Assembly: GCA_031291755.1 (NCBI GenBank)
Contig: JARLIK010000023.1
Span: 1 to 64,000, forward strand
Direction of reading: 5' to 3'
Length of the DNA: 64,000 bases
From: Acidocella sp.
Lineage (GTDB): Bacteria > Pseudomonadota > Alphaproteobacteria > Acetobacterales > Acetobacteraceae
Below, one piece after another: positions 6,043-37,126 of the stretch. Numbering within the stretch: position 1 is the stretch's first letter; each line of letters starts with the position of its first letter. The position numbers and the translations under genes are program-made. The notes below the pieces were generated by a model that saw nothing but the letters and a program-made list of their open reading frames with translations, had not been told where the DNA came from and searched no databases.

Positions 6043-8418
6043 TTACTCGGCTGCCATTTTCGGATGATAGGCGTCGATCAACGCCCAGATTTTAGCGGGC
6101 GTGGCCGGCATGTCGACATGCCGCACACCATAATCGCGCAGCGCATCCACCACCGCATTGATCACCGCTGGGGGTGAGCCAATGGCTCCCACTTCGCCAA
6201 CACCCTTCGAGCCCAGCGGGTTGTGAGTGCACAGCGTGACCTCCATCCCCACTGAGATATTAGGAATATCATCAGCCCGCGGCATGGTGTAATCCATCAT
6301 CGAGCCGGAGAGTAACTGCCCGCTCTCATCATAGATCGCGTGCTCCAGCAGCGCCTGGCCGATACCCTGCGCGATGCCGCCTTGCACCTGACCCTCCACG
6401 ATCATCGGGTTGATCACCCGGCCGATGTCATCGACCGCCGTGAAGCTGATCATACTGACCGTGCCGGTATCGGGGTCGATCTCCACCTCAGCGATATGGC
6501 AGCCACCCGGATAGGTGAAGTTTTTCGGGTCATAAAACGCGGTCTCTTCAAGCCCAGGCTCCAGCTCCTCGATCGGGTAGTTGTGCGGCACATAAGCCGT
6601 GAGCGCAATTTCGCCGAAGGTTTTGGCTTTATCGGTGCCCACCACTGAGAATTTGCCATCCTTGAATTCGATGTCATGCACATCGGCTTCCATCAGATGT
6701 GCGGCGATTTTTTTGCCCTTGTCGATAATTTTATCCATGGCTTTCACCATTGCCGAACCACCGACCGAGAGCGAGCGGCTGCCATAGGTGCCCATACCGA
6801 ACGGCACCTTGCCAGTATCGCCATGCACGATGTCGATCATGTCATGCGCAACACCAAGCTGCTCCGACACCAACTGCGCGAAGGTGGTCTCATGCCCCTG
6901 GCCATGGCTATGCGCACCGGTAAACACCGTGACACTGCCGGTAGGATGCACGCGGATGTTAGCGACCTCATACAAGCCGGCGCGGGCACCGAGTGCGCCC
7001 GCCACCGCGGAGGGCGCAATGCCGCAGGCTTCGACGTAGGTTGAAATACCAATGCCACGCAGCTTGCCTTTGGCAGCCGATGCCTTGCGGCGGGCTTCAA
7101 ACCCGGCATAGTCGGCGGCCTTCAAACAGCCATCAAAGGTGGCCATGTAATCACCGCTGTCATATTGCAAAGCGATTGGTGTTTGATACGGGAACGCCTC
7201 CTTCGGGATGAAATTCTTTTTACGGATTTCCACTCTGTCCATGTTCATCTCACGCGCCGCCACATCGACGATGCGCTCCAGCAGGAACGTCGCCTCCGGT
7301 CGGCCTGCACCGCGGTACGCATCCACCGGCACGGTGTTGGTGAACACGGCTTTCACCTCAGCATAAATCGCCGGGGTTTTATAAACGCCCGCCAGCAGGG
7401 TGGCCGAAAGATAGGTGGGGACCGACGGCGCGAAGGTGGAAAGATACGCGCCCATATTCGCCTGGGTATTCACTTTCAGCGCCAGAAAATGCCCTTCGGC
7501 ATCGAGCGCCAATTCGGCGGTGGAAATATGATCACGTCCATGCGCGTCAGTGATGAAGGCTTCGGTGCGGTCAGCGGTCCATTTGATCGGCCGCTTCACC
7601 TTGCCCGCCGCCCAGGTGAGAGCGGCTTCCTCGGCATAATGGAAAATTTTCGAGCCAAAACCACCGCCCACATCAGGGGCTACCACCCGCAGTTTATGCT
7701 CGGGGATGGAGAGCACAAACGCGCCCATCAGCAGCCGGATCACATGCGGGTTCTGGCTGGTGGTGTAGAGCGTATATTCACCCGATGACACATCGTAATC
7801 ACCAATCGCGGCACGAGGCTCCATGGCGTTGGGCACCAGCCGGTTATTCACCAGATCCAGCCGCACGATTTTATGCGCCTTGGCAAAACCCGCTTCAACA
7901 GCGGCTTTGTCACCGATATGCCAATCGAAGCAGATATTGCCAGCCGCTTCATCATGCACCAGCGGCGCACCGGCGGCCAAAGCCGCGGTCAGGCCGGCCA
8001 CAGCAGGCAGCGTTTCAATGTCCAGAATAATCGCCTCGGCAGCGTCCTTGGCCTGCTGTTTGGTCTCAGCCACCACCATCGCAATCGGATCACCGACATG
8101 GCGCACTTTCCCGGCGGCCAGCACCGGGTGCCGCGGCTCCACCATCGGTGTGCCATCCTTGCTATGAATTTGCCAGCCGCAGGGAATACCGCCAACACCG
8201 GTGAAATCATCGCCGGTGAAAATCGCCACCACGCCGGGCATTTTTAGTGCTGCACTGATATCAACCTTGTTGAGTTTCCCATGCGGCACATCCGAGCGCA
8301 GGAAATGCGCGAAGGTCTGACCCGGACGATTCATATCGTCCACATAATTACCGCGCCCGGAGAGAAACCTAAGGTCTTCCTTGCGTTTAACCGAAGCACC
8401 GATGCCATCAACAACCAT
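6043..8418 (-). CDS. molybdopterin-binding large subunit, form II CO-dehydrogenase-like (CoxL family)
   Basis: A 791-residue xanthine oxidase-family large chain that carries the Mo-cytosine dinucleotide cofactor. The N-terminus [19 protein letters not shown] is the usual CoxL/CutL opening. GGGFGSK and the [12 protein letters not shown] motif of the active-site loop are visible, and [20 protein letters not shown] carries the catalytic Glu near the C-terminus. True aerobic CO dehydrogenase (form I) has the AYXCSFR loop with the Cu-ligand Cys; this protein has AYRGAGR, the form II signature, so CO oxidation should not be assumed. Substrate could be an aldehyde, purine or heterocycle. AAGGAAA lies seven bases before the ATG. 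No CoxD/E/F/G maturation genes are visible nearby. Confidence 0.9.
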
Positions 8419-8500
8419 GTTCGTTTCCTTTTTTTATGGGACGCATTTTGGGAGCTAGGGACGCCATGGAATTTGTCACCCCACAGCGCCGCCTTAAATT

Positions 8501-8998
8501 TTACTCAGCCGCGACGGGCAAAGCCTTGTTGTGCATCAGCGGCCAGGCGGCGGCGATGGCTTTGACGATGTTGTGATACCCGGTGCAGCGGCACAGATTA
8601 CCCTCCAGCCCATGCCGGATTTGCTCTTCGCTCAAACCTTCCGGGTGGGTCTCCACCAGATCGATGGCGCTCATCACCATGCCGGGCGTGCAGTAGCCGC
8701 ATTGCAGGGCATGGTATTCCCGAAACATCGCCTGCATCGGGTGCAAACTGCCATCGGCATTCACCAAGCCTTCGATCGTCAGCACGTTGGCGCCGTCCGC
8801 CTGCACCGCCAGCATGGTGCAAGACTTCACCGACATGCCATCAACCTGCACCGTGCAGGCGCCGCACTGGCTGGTGTCACACCCTACATGGGTGCCGGTG
8901 AGGTGCAGTTTATCACGCAGCAATTCCACCAATAAGGTGCGGGCTTCAACGGTCGCAGATGCTGGTTTGCCGTTCACGGTGAGACTGATCTGGGGCAC
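8501..8998 (-). CDS. molybdenum hydroxylase [2Fe-2S] small subunit, CoxS-like
   Basis: A 165-residue protein with two [2Fe-2S] centres: the plant-ferredoxin-type set in [16 protein letters not shown]...C and the alpha-helical set in CGYCTPGM...CRCTGYHNI. It shuttles electrons from the Mo centre to the FAD subunit. The reading frame extends upstream, but a perfect GGAGG (9004-9008) stands five bases before a GTG at 8998, giving [13 protein letters not shown], the usual family N-terminus, so this start is chosen. It is the first gene of the S-L-M operon. A promoter should lie in the 132-bp stretch towards the divergent GtrA-like gene, though none is obvious. Confidence 0.92.
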
Positions 8999-9130
8999 TT
9001 GAACCTCCGTAATTTTTTGAGAACTGGTGGGGCCATCTGAACCGGGGTTGCCGTTCACGTCAAGCCACACGGTCAGATGGTGTAAGCCGCCCCCTTGCCG
9101 GTACGGCAATCGTTAGCTACCGCATCTGGC

Positions 9131-9583
9131 ATGATTGAAAAAACCTCATCCGGCTGGCTGGGAATGCAATGGAACCGGCTGGCCGCGGCGGCGGCGCGGT
9201 TGAATATCAGTGAGGATTTCATCCGCTTCGGCGTGGTCGGCACTATGGGTTTTTGCTGGGATACCGCCACAGTTTACGCACTCAAGGGTTTTATCAATCT
9301 CTACGCCGCCGGGGCTGCCGGATTTTTCGTGGCAGCCACCGCCAACTGGGCGGCCAACCGGTTCTGGACCTTTGCCCACAAGGACCACGGCGCCATGCAT
9401 GTGCAATGGGCGAAATTTCTGGCCGCCAACGCCGTGGGGTTTGTGTTCAATCGTGGCAGTTTTTTCATTTTGATCACGGTGAGTTTATTATGCCGGCGCC
9501 AACCGGTGTACGCCATCATCACCGGGTCATTCGCCGGGTTGACGTTCAATTATTTCCTTTCCAAGCGGTATGTTTTCACCTAA
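9131..9583 (+). CDS. GtrA-like membrane protein
   Basis: About 150 residues with four hydrophobic segments. The family signature FIRFGVVGTMGFCWDTATVY opens the protein, NWAANRFWTF follows the second segment, and FNYFLSKRYVFT closes it. GtrA/DPMS2-like proteins help flip or retain lipid-linked sugars (undecaprenyl-phosphate glycosyl carriers) for cell-surface glycosylation. The ATG at 9131 is used; an earlier TTG at 9095 is possible but has no ribosome site. A family 2 glycosyltransferase starts 28 bp downstream, a sensible partner. Confidence 0.85.
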   Translation: MIEKTSSGWLGMQWNRLAAAAARLNISEDFIRFGVVGTMGFCWDTATVYALKGFINLYAAGAAGFFVAATANWAANRFWTFAHKDHGAMHVQWAKFLAANAVGFVFNRGSFFILITVSLLCRRQPVYAIITGSFAGLTFNYFLSKRYVFT

Positions 9584-9611
9584 ATCAACCTAAAGATGTA
9601 TTGAGGTTGAT

Positions 9612-10601
9612 TTGTCCCAAGTTCCCGAGCTTGCCGGTGGCCCTCCCCCGCCGCAAGCGGCCTATGATGCTGATATCATTATCCTCACCATCAGCCGGAT
9701 TCCCGAAACCATCGAGGCCGTGCGTTCCGCCTGCCGCCAGACCGGCCTGGGCGTGCATGTCAGCGTACTCGACCAAGGCTCGCCCGAGGCCGAATTTCAA
9801 ATGCTTGCCGCCGCATTGCAAGGCGAGGCCCGTATTTCGCTGTACCGAAGTTTTGTAAATCTTGGCGTGGCGGGGGGGCGGAATTTTCTGGCGCAACAGG
9901 GTAATGGCAAAATCATCGCCGGGCTCGATAATGATGCGGTGTTCGCCAGCGATCATATCGTGGCGCAAGCGAACCGGAAGTTTGCAGATCATCCGCGCCT
10001 GGGGGCACTCGGGTTTCGAATCCTGAACGGTGACGGCACGGCGCTTGATGAGTCGAGCTGGGGTTATCCGCAATCCCTAAAACCTCATTGCCATGCTTGG
10101 TTTTTAACAACCACCTTCGTTGGCGCCGGGCACGCCATCCGGCGTACCGCCTGGCAACAGGCTGGGGGCTATGACGCCAGATTATTCTTCACCTGGGAAG
10201 AGTATGATTTTTGCCGCCGCGCCATAAAATCCGGTTGGCAGATTGGCTATGACGGCTTGCTGGTGGTTTGGCACAAGGCCGCCACTGCCCAGCGGGTTGG
10301 CTGGCAAGGAGCGCGGCAAGGGTTTTTCGTGCGCAATCGTCTGGTGATTGCCCGCAAATGGCGTGAACCAAGATTGCTGCTTATTGCAGGTTATTTGCTG
10401 AAGGGGCTGCTCGCCGGGCGTTTCATCGCCACGCTGCAAGGCGTGCTGGCTGGGTTGCGATGGAAGCTGACGGCCACGCAGACCATGCCGCCATTAATGC
10501 AAGCCTATCTGCAACAGCATGAGGCCAGACATCGGGGCCCTTGGTGGTTACGCGTTCAGTCCGAGCTTTTCCGTAAACGTCCCGCGGTTGCCAGCGGGTG
10601 A
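9612..10601 (+). CDS. family 2 glycosyltransferase
   Basis: A 329-residue GT-A type glycosyltransferase. DADIIILTISRIPETIEAV is the first strand. GVAGGRNFLAQQGNGKII, ending in the metal-binding GLDNDAVFA, corresponds to the DXD region. FVGAGHAIRRTAW and the FTWEEYDFCRRA acceptor-site motif (ED) follow. It lacks clear membrane segments. The start is a TTG with GAGG five bases upstream. It probably uses a nucleotide sugar to extend a rhamnan-like or lipid-linked glycan together with the GtrA-like protein. The last 46 bp overlap the 3' end of the convergent xerD gene. Confidence 0.86.
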   Translation: MSQVPELAGGPPPPQAAYDADIIILTISRIPETIEAVRSACRQTGLGVHVSVLDQGSPEAEFQMLAAALQGEARISLYRSFVNLGVAGGRNFLAQQGNGKIIAGLDNDAVFASDHIVAQANRKFADHPRLGALGFRILNGDGTALDESSWGYPQSLKPHCHAWFLTTTFVGAGHAIRRTAWQQAGGYDARLFFTWEEYDFCRRAIKSGWQIGYDGLLVVWHKAATAQRVGWQGARQGFFVRNRLVIARKWREPRLLLIAGYLLKGLLAGRFIATLQGVLAGLRWKLTATQTMPPLMQAYLQQHEARHRGPWWLRVQSELFRKRPAVASG

Positions 10602-31029: not shown

Positions 31030-33144
31030 ATGGTAGAAATGAGCCGTAGCCCGAACATCGCCAACGAATCAGCCAACCCGAACATGTCGATCCCGGAGGC
31101 GCTGGCCAAAGCCAATGCCCACTGGAACGCCGGGCAGGCGGATATCGCCGAGATGCTATGCCAGCGCATATTAGCGGCTTGGCCGGGCCACCCGGATGCG
31201 CTGCACCTGCTGGGGTTGATGGCGCATGCCTACGGGAACCTGGATGTTGCCATTAATTATCTGCGGCAAGCCTGCGCGGCGCCGCGCGCCCCGGCGGTGT
31301 ATTCCGCCAACCTCGCCGAGATGTGCCGCCAGCGCGGCCTGCTGGCCGAGGGCGAAACCCACGCCCGACGCGCCGTACAGATGGACACCACCCACCCAGG
31401 TGCCTGGAATAATCTGGGCATCATTTTGCAGGAAATGGGACAATTCGAGGAGAGCAAGCGCTGCCTGGAGCGGGTGCTTACCCTGCAACCGCATAATGCC
31501 GAAGCCTATAACAACCTCGGCAACACCTGCAAGCGCATGGGCGAGTTGACCGCCGCCCAGCGCCATTGGAACCGTGCGTTGTCGCTGCGGCCCAATTACG
31601 CCGAGCCGCATAGCAACCTCGCCAACCTGCTCTCAGCCCAAGGCGAGTATGACAGCGCCGCCAAGCACGCCAAACGCGCCATTGAACTGAACCCGCGTTT
31701 TGCCGACGCCTATATCAACCTCGCCGGGGTAGAGACCGCCCGCAACCGCCACGGCGAGGCGCTGCGATGGATTGATTCGCTGCTCAGCTTTGCCCCCCAG
31801 CACGCCGTCGCCCTGGCCTCACGCGCCCTGACCCTGAAGAAGCTTGACCAATTGGAAGATGCGTTGGCGGCAGTTGACCGCGCCTTGGTGGCATCGCCCG
31901 AAAATGCCGAGGCACATAACGCCCACGGCCAGATTTTACAGGCGCTGGGCCGGACTGACGAGGCTTTGGCCGCCTATGACCGCGCTGCCACCCTGCCTGG
32001 CACCGCTACCGAACAGGCGCTGATCAACCGCGCCATTCTGCTGATGGAACAAGGCCAGAGCGAGTCGGCGAAGGCCGAATTTGACAAGGTGATTCAGCTC
32101 TACCCCGGCTCTGCCATGGCGCTGTTCAACAGCGCGGATTTACGCAAATTCAGCGAGGGCGACCCGCTGATCGAGACGATGCACCGGCTGTTGAATGCGG
32201 GGGCGGAAACCTCGGCGAATGATAAAATGCTGCTGCATTATGCGCTCGGCAAAGCCTATCTCGATATTGGCAATTCCGAGACAGCGTTTCATCATTTGAA
32301 TACCGGCAGCCATATGAAGCGCCAGACCATCGACTATAGCGCCGCCGCCACGTCCGACTGGATGGAGTCCATCGCCAAGGTATTCTCCGCCAAATTCATC
32401 AAGGAGCATGCAGGCCAGGGCAATGACTCCCCGATGCCGATCTTCGTGCTCGGCATGCCGCGCTCCGGCACCACGCTCACTGAACAAGTGCTGGCCTCGC
32501 ACCCGTCCATCCATGGCGCCGGTGAGCTGGGACTGATGCAGGCCATCATCAATAAAATTGGCGATTTCCCAGGTAACGTACCGAATCTTTCGGCTGAAAC
32601 CCTAAAACAATTTGGTGACAGCTACATCGCCGACATCACCAAAATCGCGCATGGCAAGCCCTATGTGGTCGATAAAATGCCGATCAACTTCGCCTTCGCC
32701 GGGCTGATCCGTTTGATCCTGCCGGGTGCCCATATCATCCACTCACGGCGCGACCCGGTGGATACCTGCCTGTCCTGCTACAGCAAATTATTCACCGCCG
32801 AGCAGTCTTTCTCATATGACATGACCGAGCTGGGGCAGTTCCACCGCGACTACCAAAATCTCACCGCGCATTGGCGCAAGGTGCTGCCGGCGAAATTCTT
32901 CCTGGAGGTTGATTACGAGGCGATGGTGGAAGATTTGGAAACCCAGGCCAAGCGGATGTTAAAATTCCTCGGCCTGCCCTGGGACCCCAACTGCCTGAAC
33001 TTCCATGAAACCAAGCGCACCGTGCGTACCGCCAGTGTCAACCAGGTGCGCAAGCCGGTGTATAAAACCTCCTCCGGCCGCTGGCGCAAACACGCCGCGC
33101 AGTTGGGGCCGCTGCTGCAAGCCCTGGACATTGCCGCAGAATGA
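31030..33144 (+). CDS. TPR-repeat sulfotransferase family protein
   Basis: A 704-residue two-part protein. Residues about 15-380 are tandem TPR repeats (for example NNLGNTCKRMGELTAAQRHW and NLANLLSAQGEYDSAAKHAK). Residues about 460-704 are a sulfotransferase domain with the PAPS 5'-phosphosulfate loop IFVLGMPRSGTTLTEQVLA, GAGELGLMQ, and the 3'-phosphate-binding HSRRDPVDTCLSCY. Related TPR-sulfotransferases modify glycans or proteins using PAPS. It has no signal peptide, so it acts in the cytoplasm. It is followed at once by a TPR glycosyltransferase-like gene, suggesting a shared substrate. ATG 31030 is used; ATG 31039 is in frame. Confidence 0.88.
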   Translation: MVEMSRSPNIANESANPNMSIPEALAKANAHWNAGQADIAEMLCQRILAAWPGHPDALHLLGLMAHAYGNLDVAINYLRQACAAPRAPAVYSANLAEMCRQRGLLAEGETHARRAVQMDTTHPGAWNNLGIILQEMGQFEESKRCLERVLTLQPHNAEAYNNLGNTCKRMGELTAAQRHWNRALSLRPNYAEPHSNLANLLSAQGEYDSAAKHAKRAIELNPRFADAYINLAGVETARNRHGEALRWIDSLLSFAPQHAVALASRALTLKKLDQLEDALAAVDRALVASPENAEAHNAHGQILQALGRTDEALAAYDRAATLPGTATEQALINRAILLMEQGQSESAKAEFDKVIQLYPGSAMALFNSADLRKFSEGDPLIETMHRLLNAGAETSANDKMLLHYALGKAYLDIGNSETAFHHLNTGSHMKRQTIDYSAAATSDWMESIAKVFSAKFIKEHAGQGNDSPMPIFVLGMPRSGTTLTEQVLASHPSIHGAGELGLMQAIINKIGDFPGNVPNLSAETLKQFGDSYIADITKIAHGKPYVVDKMPINFAFAGLIRLILPGAHIIHSRRDPVDTCLSCYSKLFTAEQSFSYDMTELGQFHRDYQNLTAHWRKVLPAKFFLEVDYEAMVEDLETQAKRMLKFLGLPWDPNCLNFHETKRTVRTASVNQVRKPVYKTSSGRWRKHAAQLGPLLQALDIAAE

Positions 33145-35266: not shown

Positions 35267-36184
35267 ATGCGTGAAGATGAGATAAAAAGCGTATTACTGA
35301 ATCTGAACGCCAGCCAGGACTGCATCGAGGCTTCGGCCCTGATCTCAACCGACGGGCTGATTATCGCCTCGGCGCTGGCGCCGGGGCTCGATGAAGACCA
35401 CCTCGGCGCTCTGGCCACGGCAGTATTGTCACTCGGCGATAACACCACCGCCGCGCTGGCATGCGGGGCGATGGAACAGGTGATGATCAGCGGGGCTGAC
35501 CGCCATCTGCTGATCCTGCAAGCCGGACCGGAAGCTGTGCTTAGCGCCATTGCCGGGCCGGGCGTGAAACTCGGCCCACTGCTGCTGGATGCCAGCTACG
35601 CCGCCAGCGTCATTTTGCCGGATACCGGCAACAAGACCGGCATACTGAACGATCCAAGCCTGGAGACATTGCGTTTTGACGGCGGGCTGGGGCCGGAAGA
35701 TGTAACGATCATGGCTGCGATTCAGGATATCGTGACAAAGCTGCTGCCCACCCTGACCACGCAATTTTATGATGTCATTATCGCCGAGCCGCACGCGATG
35801 CAGGCGGTCACCGGGCCGATCGCTGACACGCAGGCGATCCACTTGGCCTGGTTGCAGCGGGTGTTCGATGGAAATTACGGACCCGGCTTTATGCAGCGTC
35901 AGCGCGATACGCTGGAGTTCAAAAACATCAAGACCTTACCAGCGGTTTTTGTAGCCACCAGCATTGCCTTCCTGCGCGGGGCAATGGCGCCGATGGTGCT
36001 TGCTCAGGCCTCCGGTGAGCCGCAAACGCCTGCCATCACCGCCACGATATTGCGGCTGCTCGACCTCTGCCAATATCTGACAGATCCGAAATACGCCGAG
36101 CTTTTCTCGCCTTTCGAGCAGGTCAAGAAGCAGAACGCCTGGCAGCATCTGGCCCGGCGCACCAAAGAGAACGCACCGCTCTAG
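35267..36184 (+). CDS. fused roadblock/LC7 - protoglobin-like protein lacking the haem-ligand His
   Basis: A 305-residue protein. Residues 1-117 are a roadblock/LC7 domain (MREDEIKSVL, EASALISTDGLIIASALAPG, CGAMEQVMISG, LLILQAGPEAVL). Residues about 125-295 align, without gaps through the FYDVI to FLRGAM stretch, to the protoglobin encoded on the opposite strand at 36181-36732. The His expected at haem position F8 is Lys219 here (FKNIKTLPAVFV against ETHVRVRVPPLF). Roadblock proteins usually regulate Ras-like GTPases; none is encoded nearby. It reads as a fusion of paralogues of the two convergent genes, with the globin part probably not binding haem in the usual way. Confidence 0.85.
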   Translation: MREDEIKSVLLNLNASQDCIEASALISTDGLIIASALAPGLDEDHLGALATAVLSLGDNTTAALACGAMEQVMISGADRHLLILQAGPEAVLSAIAGPGVKLGPLLLDASYAASVILPDTGNKTGILNDPSLETLRFDGGLGPEDVTIMAAIQDIVTKLLPTLTTQFYDVIIAEPHAMQAVTGPIADTQAIHLAWLQRVFDGNYGPGFMQRQRDTLEFKNIKTLPAVFVATSIAFLRGAMAPMVLAQASGEPQTPAITATILRLLDLCQYLTDPKYAELFSPFEQVKKQNAWQHLARRTKENAPL

Positions 36185-36732
36185 CTTGCTAGCGCCAAGC
36201 CTTTACCGACCGTTTGCAGGCGCGTCAGCAGTACCGGGCTGATCCCCAAATTATCCATCAACACTTCGGCATATTTGCGGTCGATCAAATATTGGCAGAG
36301 ATCGAGCAGCCGCAACACCGAAGCAGTGGCCAGCATCGCTTGTTTTGCATCGGGAACGTTAACCACCAGCACCGGCGGTAAAGCGCCGCGCAAAAACGCC
36401 ATGCTGGCGGCGACAAACAACGGCGGCACCCGCACCCGTACATGGGTTTCGCCAATTTTCTCCTGGCGCTTAATAAAATCGACTCCATAATCACCTGCAA
36501 ACAGGCTTTCCAGCCAGACAACATGAGTCTTTTTGAGTTGCTCAACCCGGCCTTCGATATAAGGCTTGATTTCAGGCTCTTCCGCCAGAACTTCATAGAA
36601 GCGATCGGTCAGCCAGGGAATCAGCGGGTGAACATTATCGCGCACGGCCGTCAGAACGATCTGATCCTCGCGACTCAGCCCAGCCACATGGCAGAAAAGT
36701 TCGAGATTCCGGTCACTATAATGCAGTTCCAT
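36181..36732 (-). CDS. protoglobin (globin-coupled-sensor type globin domain)
   Basis: A 183-residue single-domain sensor globin. FYEVLAEEPEIKPYI, THVVWLESLFAGDYGVDFI and KRQEKIGETHVRVRVPPL follow the globin-coupled-sensor pattern, with the proximal haem ligand at His97. No transmitter domain is attached, so it is a stand-alone protoglobin likely binding O2, CO or NO. AAGGAG sits nine bases before the ATG at 36732; the frame continues upstream into the roadblock gene but that extension is rejected. It lies 31 bp behind the roadblock gene on the same strand, and its stop overlaps the last codons of the convergent fused paralogue by 4 bp. Confidence 0.85.
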   Translation of the reverse strand: MELHYSDRNLELFCHVAGLSREDQIVLTAVRDNVHPLIPWLTDRFYEVLAEEPEIKPYIEGRVEQLKKTHVVWLESLFAGDYGVDFIKRQEKIGETHVRVRVPPLFVAASMAFLRGALPPVLVVNVPDAKQAMLATASVLRLLDLCQYLIDRKYAEVLMDNLGISPVLLTRLQTVGKGLALAS

Positions 36733-36763
36733 AAAATCCGGCTCCTTGTATGTGGTCAGATAA

Positions 36764-37126
36764 CTATAACAGGCTGGTAACGGCCTGAGCCGCATATTTG
36801 GCATCCAAAAACAACAGCCCCAGCTTCGCGGTTTTATTGGCGATGGTGCAGAGAACCGCGTCCTGTCCAGCGTGGATGATCAGGATATGACCATGTGAGC
36901 CGGTGATCAGCACTTGTTCCAGCGTGCCGCAGGCAAGTTCCGCAGCAGTCCGGTCACCGAGCGACAGCATCGCCGCCACCATGGCGCTGACCCGGTCTTC
37001 ATCCATCATCTCCGGCAGCACCGAGGACAAGATCAGACCATCGGTCGAGATCAGTGCCGCGGCTTCAATGCTGGCAGACCGTCCTTTCAGGTCAGTCAAA
37101 ACGGTCTTTATTTGATCTTCACGCAT
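36764..37126 (-). CDS. roadblock/LC7 domain protein
   Basis: A 120-residue single-domain protein: MREDQIKTVL, IEAAALISTDGLILSSVLPE, MVAAMLSLGDRTAAEL, CGTLEQVLITGSHGHILIIH, and ending LFLDAKYAAQAVTSLL. Bacterial roadblock/LC7 proteins (MglB type) act as dimers on small GTPases or as scaffolds. There is no GTPase gene in the window. GAGG lies five bases before ATG 37126. It is more than half identical by eye to the first domain of the convergent fused protein at 35267-36184, and is followed by the protoglobin gene, i.e. the same order as in the fusion. Confidence 0.88.
   Translation of the reverse strand: MREDQIKTVLTDLKGRSASIEAAALISTDGLILSSVLPEMMDEDRVSAMVAAMLSLGDRTAAELACGTLEQVLITGSHGHILIIHAGQDAVLCTIANKTAKLGLLFLDAKYAAQAVTSLL

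Follow-up and report, generated by a model that had tools for sequence, protein, structure and literature searches.

Roadblock proteins control small GTPases, and small molecules known to act as inputs to these proteins are, to our knowledge, few. Globin-coupled sensors (GCS) combine a globin with a transmitter domain in one polypeptide, the globin being N-terminal. The sole published relative returned by our literature search for a globin and a Roadblock/LC7 domain in one protein was HGbRL of the acidophile Methylacidiphilum infernorum (PMC4476040); HGb-I of the same bacterium is the subject of a second report (PMC11203436). In the former account, HGbRL was proposed to serve as a ligand sensor with a Roadblock output and to have arisen by duplication and fusion. 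Its globin groups with HGbI, HMP, FHP and VsHb, precedes the Roadblock domain and retains haem, with a distal Lys(E10) as the sixth ligand (PMC4476040). In the sensor globin family that includes RsbR of B. subtilis (haem-less, PMC4476040) and of V. vulnificus (PMC9237108), STAS-domain stressosome proteins without a Roadblock domain, some members have lost the F8 His and haem. With the Myxococcus polarity module, the Roadblock GAP MglB acts together with RomY on the Ras-like GTPase MglA, and has a paralogue, MglC (PMC9481161, PMC7949163). The word "globin" is absent from the main text of a survey of prokaryotic Ras GTPases (PMC4316618), and our literature search returned nothing that joins protoglobin with Roadblock, Acidocella or GTPase-activating proteins.

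A first-pass annotation had described two Roadblock–protoglobin modules, one fused and one split, at positions 35267–37126 of the window, the 64,000-nucleotide stretch of Acidocella sp. DNA analysed here (contig JARLIK010000023.1; genome G000, 83.67% complete), and this description was borne out by intact open reading frames and by Pfam scores above the cut-offs. On the plus strand, the gene at 35267..36184 encodes the fusion P0001 (305 aa), composed of a Roadblock/LC7 half (residues 1-118; 35267..35620) and a protoglobin half (residues 129-281; 35651..36109). Converging on it from the minus strand are the genes encoding the stand-alone Roadblock/LC7 protein P0003 (120 aa; 36764..37126), the first of the split pair, and the stand-alone protoglobin P0002 (183 aa; 36181..36732). 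All three ORFs are intact, and the stop codons of the facing globin genes overlap (36182-36184 on the plus strand, 36181-36183 on the minus strand). Two 63-nt inverted arms, 79% complementary (36037-36099 and 36266-36328), correspond to the conserved ends of the two globin genes, which encode helix H and lie face to face. Upstream of the locus, at 31030-33144, is a gene encoding a TPR–sulfotransferase protein (Sulfotransfer_3, 4.8e-43).

Both modules have the same domain order by Pfam, Roadblock then protoglobin. In P0001, Robl_LC7 was matched at residues 16-94 (E 4.1e-10) and Protoglobin at residues 140-252 (E 1.1e-7), which upheld the earlier assignment of its second domain; P0002 matched Protoglobin at 6.7e-22 and P0003 matched Robl_LC7 at 2.4e-13. 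The two Roadblock/LC7 domains (PF03259) scored 39.7 and 50.1 bits, both exceeding the curated cut-off of 23, and the globins (PF11563) scored 78.6 (P0002) and 32.4 bits (P0001) against a cut-off of 25. NCBIfam held no family for P0001 or P0002 and gave five matches for P0003, all far under cut-off, one being an MglB model (0.011). The best PDB sequence matches were 7f8m for P0001 (2.9e-10) and 2w31, the Geobacter GCS globin, for P0002 (1e-12). Single-chain AF2 models were built from shallow alignments (the window plus the L033/L034 rows). That of P0001 had a mean pLDDT of 54.9, its Roadblock half being poor (below 50) and its globin half usable (blocks of 65-94 across residues 141-270), while that of P0002 averaged 74.7, with the F region, residues 94-100, below 50. 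Foldseek ranked GCS globins top for the P0001 model with a probability of 1.00 (best E 2.3e-3, none below 1e-3), and TM-scores by target among the top seven rows, against AfGcHK, DosC and GsGCS, were 0.66-0.69, consistent with a GCS-type globin fold.

The paralogy of the two modules proposed previously is well supported. The globin halves of P0001 and P0002 share 61 of 153 residues (40%; E 5e-39), and the Roadblock halves of P0001 and P0003 share 64 of 116 (55%; E 3e-40); together with the profile matches, these values rejected chance similarity. The globin alignment is indeed free of gaps, but it extends over 153 residues rather than the approximately 73 originally given. Tyr46, His70 and His97 of P0002 align with Tyr40, His66 and His93 of 2w31, the first and last of which we take to be B10 and F8, respectively, and P0002 has the intervening His(E11) in common with this GCS globin; His66(E11) is described as a haem ligand in GsGCS (PMC4476040). 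In the same columns, P0001 has Tyr168 (codon 35768..35770), His192 (35840..35842) and Lys219 (35921..35923), indicating that the proximal ligand is altered and the distal side is not. The opposition of Lys219 to His97 (36442..36444, minus strand) at F8 was as first reported, and holds in an ungapped alignment; the alignment of His192 with His66 (E11) was absent from that report. The five His residues of P0001 (45, 80, 176, 192 and 294) include none at or adjoining F8, and another proximal His was thereby rejected at the level of sequence. By profile, the globin of P0001 is a protoglobin homologue, and by alignment the proximal His(F8) is present in P0002 only.

The locus resembles HGbRL in associating a globin with Roadblock/LC7 within one protein, in its proposed use as a ligand sensor with a Roadblock output, in a proposed origin by duplication and fusion and in its acidophile host. 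It departs from HGbRL in that its globins are protoglobins, the Roadblock domain of P0001 precedes the globin, one globin has a lysine at the proximal F8 position, and a pair of unequal modules takes the place of a single protein. With globin-coupled sensors (AfGcHK, GsGCS, HemAT, DosC, BpeGReg), it has in common a protoglobin-type sensor with Tyr(B10) and His(F8). Unlike these, for which the entries matched are by name kinases, aerotaxis proteins and diguanylate cyclases, the partner domain here is a Roadblock, which in the fusion is N-terminal to the globin and which for the His-bearing globin is encoded by a separate gene. As in RsbR, the F8 His and probably haem are lost from one member; the accompanying domain is Roadblock, not STAS.

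P0001 was used to search its own genome, 36 from the genus and 24 from the class (61 in total); 17 matched, all of them within the genus. Relatives with the same layout occur in G031 (86% identity), G017 (76%) and G006 (40%). Among 38 genomes of the genus, PF03259 was matched at 39 places in 18 genomes; of these places, 31 belong to the Roadblock–globin loci of 17 genomes, the other eight lying elsewhere. Sixteen of the 17 loci were readable, that of G029 being interrupted by a contig end, and they fall into three contexts (neighbour families were tested with profiles in the window and in L068, and assigned by sequence likeness in the other loci). In the first, converging modules lie near a gene for a LigB-type dioxygenase (G000, G031, G017, G006). 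In the second, diverging modules lie beside a putative parC, read by eye (G009, G015, G002, G022, G032); G010 has this layout, its contig ending before the neighbour is visible. In the third, tandem or single fusions follow an S24-peptidase/repressor-like gene (G034, G011, G016, G035, G007, G020), and the locus of G034 is followed by a ClC channel gene. The 27 Roadblock-linked globins of the 16 loci have His at F8 in 21 cases, Lys in four, Tyr in one (G016) and Phe in one (G035), the four Lys globins being the fusions of the convergent context. B10 is Tyr in 26 of the 27 and E11 is His in 26 of the 27; in a loose alignment, sensor globins encoded by long ORFs in the genus have mostly Gln in the E11 column.

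Where constraint has been lost and where it has been kept was examined by comparing the fused and split globins of the four lysine loci with those of three controls (G010, G015, G009), the three His/His loci carrying both forms. Over helices E and EF–F, identities numbered 12, 11, 13 and 11 of 42 in G000, G031, G017 and G006, respectively, against 26, 24 and 29 of 42 in G010, G015 and G009. Pooled, these amount to 47/168 (28%) versus 79/126 (63%), with a Fisher p of 4e-9, while over helices G–H the lysine loci (117/192, 61%) were level with the controls (84/143, 59%; p 0.74), these p values being a guide only because the loci are related. Helices A–C gave 70/204 and 51/153. Helix H is identical between the G000 paralogues at 17 of 24 residues. 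Gene conversion was considered as a source of this similarity and no clear sign of it was seen, the same codon being used for 10 of 17 identical residues in G000 and 12 of 17 in G031, near the values for control pairs (8/15, 6/14 and 9/14). In such globins, dimers form through helices G and H. The conserved loss of the proximal ligand from just one member of a neighbouring globin pair, while the helices used for pairing are kept, provides a natural experiment on the role of a sensor globin that lacks normal haem ligation.

The reading that we favour, with about equal measures of confidence and doubt, is that two unequal paralogues together make up a haem sensor coupled to Roadblock. The haem of P0002 would be bound by His97(F8), with Tyr(B10) and His(E11) distal to it; the protein would sense a gas or redox signal, perhaps O2, NO or similar, and would work with P0003, encoded upstream of it. 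P0001 would contribute another Roadblock domain, together with a globin in which lysine has replaced the proximal ligand; this globin has most likely given up normal haem binding but would use helices G and H to pair with the haem globin. Motion in the haem globin would then be relayed through the mixed globin/Roadblock assembly, such that the Roadblock face acts differently on an NTPase. Several points count against this proposal: the conservation of helices G–H may reflect no more than a homodimer, retention of the distal His and Tyr would be unexpected in a protein that never binds haem, the fused globin has a higher rate of change than the split one, the AF2 model of P0001 is weak (mean pLDDT 54.9, Roadblock half below 50), and the GTPase models used gave no match in G000 or in most of the genus.

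An NTPase output is suggested by two other families, where a gene for a Ras/Arf-like GTPase adjoins the Roadblock–protoglobin pair. A search of 385 genomes of the class (best eight candidates of each) gave nothing better than 1.6e-13 outside G000, and mostly long ORFs; among the best five candidates from each of 397 genomes of the family, those outside the genus comprised two Roadblock-only matches (G431, G319) and globin-only matches, mostly long ORFs. Searches of the phylum (398 genomes) and of family f60 (74 genomes) led to Roadblock–protoglobin neighbours in four of the 23 genomes of genus g214 (f60) and in G725 (f68). At four of these five loci, namely L118, L119 and L120 (f60) and L135 (f68), a Ras/Arf-like GTPase gene lies on the same strand within approximately 1.3 kb; none was seen in the stretch of L121 examined. 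The GTPase of L118 matched PF03029 at 5.7e-15 and Arf at 1.6e-12, and that of L135 matched PF03029 at 4.2e-15. GTPases were sought with PF03029 and a six-sequence model, A3; as A3 contains the L118, L120 and L135 sequences, only L119 is an independent match to it. L118 has the order Roadblock–globin–Roadblock–globin–Roadblock, and its operon (7828-10537) includes a metallo-beta-lactamase gene of the ODP family (6.8e-74), whose proteins bind O2 at a di-iron site. A metallo-beta-lactamase gene also adjoins the Roadblock and protoglobin genes in L119, L120 and L121, the ODP family having been tested in L118. In f68, the GTPase, Roadblock and protoglobin genes are consecutive on one strand (L135:6202-7661), and E11 of the globin aligns as Leu. 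The L132, L133 and L136 loci resemble the L118-type operon, minus the globin.

No Ras-like GTPase, MglA-type or other, was found in G000 by PF03029 or A3, in agreement with the earlier statement that none lies nearby, and none was found by these models in 35 of the 38 genomes of the genus; the locus shares with MglA/MglB modules a Roadblock protein that has a paralogue, but differs from them in this respect, and they for their part have no globin. The A3 matches in the genus were confined to G007, G016 and G020, all distant from the globin loci, and none of the 16 readable loci holds one. The target in G000 is therefore probably a different NTPase, unless a GTPase lies in the unassembled part of the genome. 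The partner had initially been called unknown; its class, at least, can now be proposed from the two other families. A more specific, and correspondingly more doubtful, version would make the haem globin and an obligate partner that has swapped or lost its ligand into a mixed dimer on a two-Roadblock platform, giving O2- or NO-responsive, GAP-like switching of the Ras type; Acidocella would have kept the sensor–Roadblock half while losing or replacing the GTPase that other proteobacteria encode alongside. Across three proteobacterial families a haem globin is linked to Roadblock, and in two of them a Ras/Arf-like GTPase lies alongside, which makes it testable whether gas or redox state reaches GTPase switching through globin–Roadblock proteins.

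The first-pass annotation had also suggested that haem ligation was lost from the fusion. With respect to the proximal motif this stands, as Ile, Gly and His of the QxxIGxxH signature are all replaced in the lysine copies, but Tyr(B10) and His(E11) are present in all four of them, as are Trp73, Phe78 and Gly83 (P0002 numbers). A haem-free P0001 is thus likely from its sequence, and ligation by Lys(F8) and His(E11) is possible, the kept distal pair leaving room for altered haem binding. It is on this basis that the fused globin might still bind haem, with His192(E11), Lys219(F8) or both on the iron, and the locus encode two sensors of different chemistry. We consider this unlikely, even though the F8 Lys is among only five of 22 EF–F positions invariant across the four lysine copies, His66(E11) serves as a haem ligand in GsGCS and Lys–His haem is reported for the HGbRL globin (PMC4476040): the signature was lost at three positions at once, helices E–F are overall less similar to the haem paralogue, and a literature search of titles and the opening parts of abstracts gave no globin with Lys at F8.

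With a similarly low probability, the fused copy may be a self-sufficient homodimer with a role other than gas sensing, in the manner of a haem-less RsbR globin, and its neighbours independent sensors left by duplication. Precedent for this is provided by B. subtilis RsbR, which lost the F8 His and haem binding where its homologues keep the F8 His (PMC4476040). Single Roadblock-linked globins also occur, as G016 and G035 have one protoglobin match each, without an F8 His; a haem partner is thus not universal, which counts against a strict rule. Opposed to it are the ten two-Roadblock loci of two layouts (G000, G031, G017, G006, G010, G009, G015, G002, G022, G032), each of which has both Roadblock domains together with at least one F8-His globin. 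The four lysine loci have it in the stand-alone form, three loci in both forms and three in the fused form only. In G002, the stand-alone globin has been cut down to a helix-H remnant (L071:8596-8697) following an intact Roadblock gene, and the stretches searched in G022 and G032 gave no sign of one.

Four species keep the fusion with lysine, which is under purifying selection. Among G000, G031 and G017, dN/dS was 0.15-0.18 for the fused globin, 0.07-0.09 for the split globin, 0.05-0.07 for the Roadblock half of P0001 and 0.02-0.03 for P0003; comparisons with the distant G006, for which synonymous sites are nearly saturated, gave 0.24-0.36 for the fused and 0.11-0.13 for the split globin. Identities between G000 and G031 were 82% for the fused globin half, 93% for its Roadblock half and 90% for the split globin, and between G000 and G017 they were 65%, 91% and 79%, respectively. 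That the fused globin is merely a decaying domain, with the Roadblock half alone in use, is improbable, for although it changes faster than both its own Roadblock half and the split globin, the ORF is intact in the four species, dN/dS among the closest three is low, and helices G–H are as paralogue-like as in His/His pairs.

The origin of the arrangement had been ascribed to an inverted duplication followed by fusion. Duplication and fusion stand, but a purely local event is not favoured by the globin tree, in which all 20 fused globins form one clade (support 96/86), such that the fused or split state changes once while the F8 state needs at least three changes. A constraint grouping the four lysine globins with their split neighbours cost only 2.6 log units (AU p 0.155), so a local duplication was not rejected. 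A globin tree without helices E–F gave no resolution at the duplication point, and in the weakly resolved Roadblock tree the fused halves do not form a single clade. As judged from the globin tree, the duplication and fusion were probably a single event older than this lineage, with His lost later inside the fused clade. Spread of the stand-alone globin by plasmids was also considered and set aside, a plasmid collection giving no match.

Other combinations of these genes were encountered during the searches. G000 has a second, lone Roadblock gene on contig C37 (L080:7696-9452), accompanied by genes for SCP2-domain and phosphonate-binding-protein-like products, and a gene resembling the latter by eye is present at L124 and L125, two loci with Roadblock and GTPase genes. 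In G020, apart from its globin locus, a GTPase gene directly precedes that of a 469-aa protein with a weak Roadblock match (L141:1471-3452), an arrangement that, judged by position, recurs in G007. Three tandem protoglobin genes occur in G744 (L122:7924-10045), with no Roadblock match in the stretch examined; all three products have His at F8 and E11, and an E11 His was likewise found in the f60 globins read.
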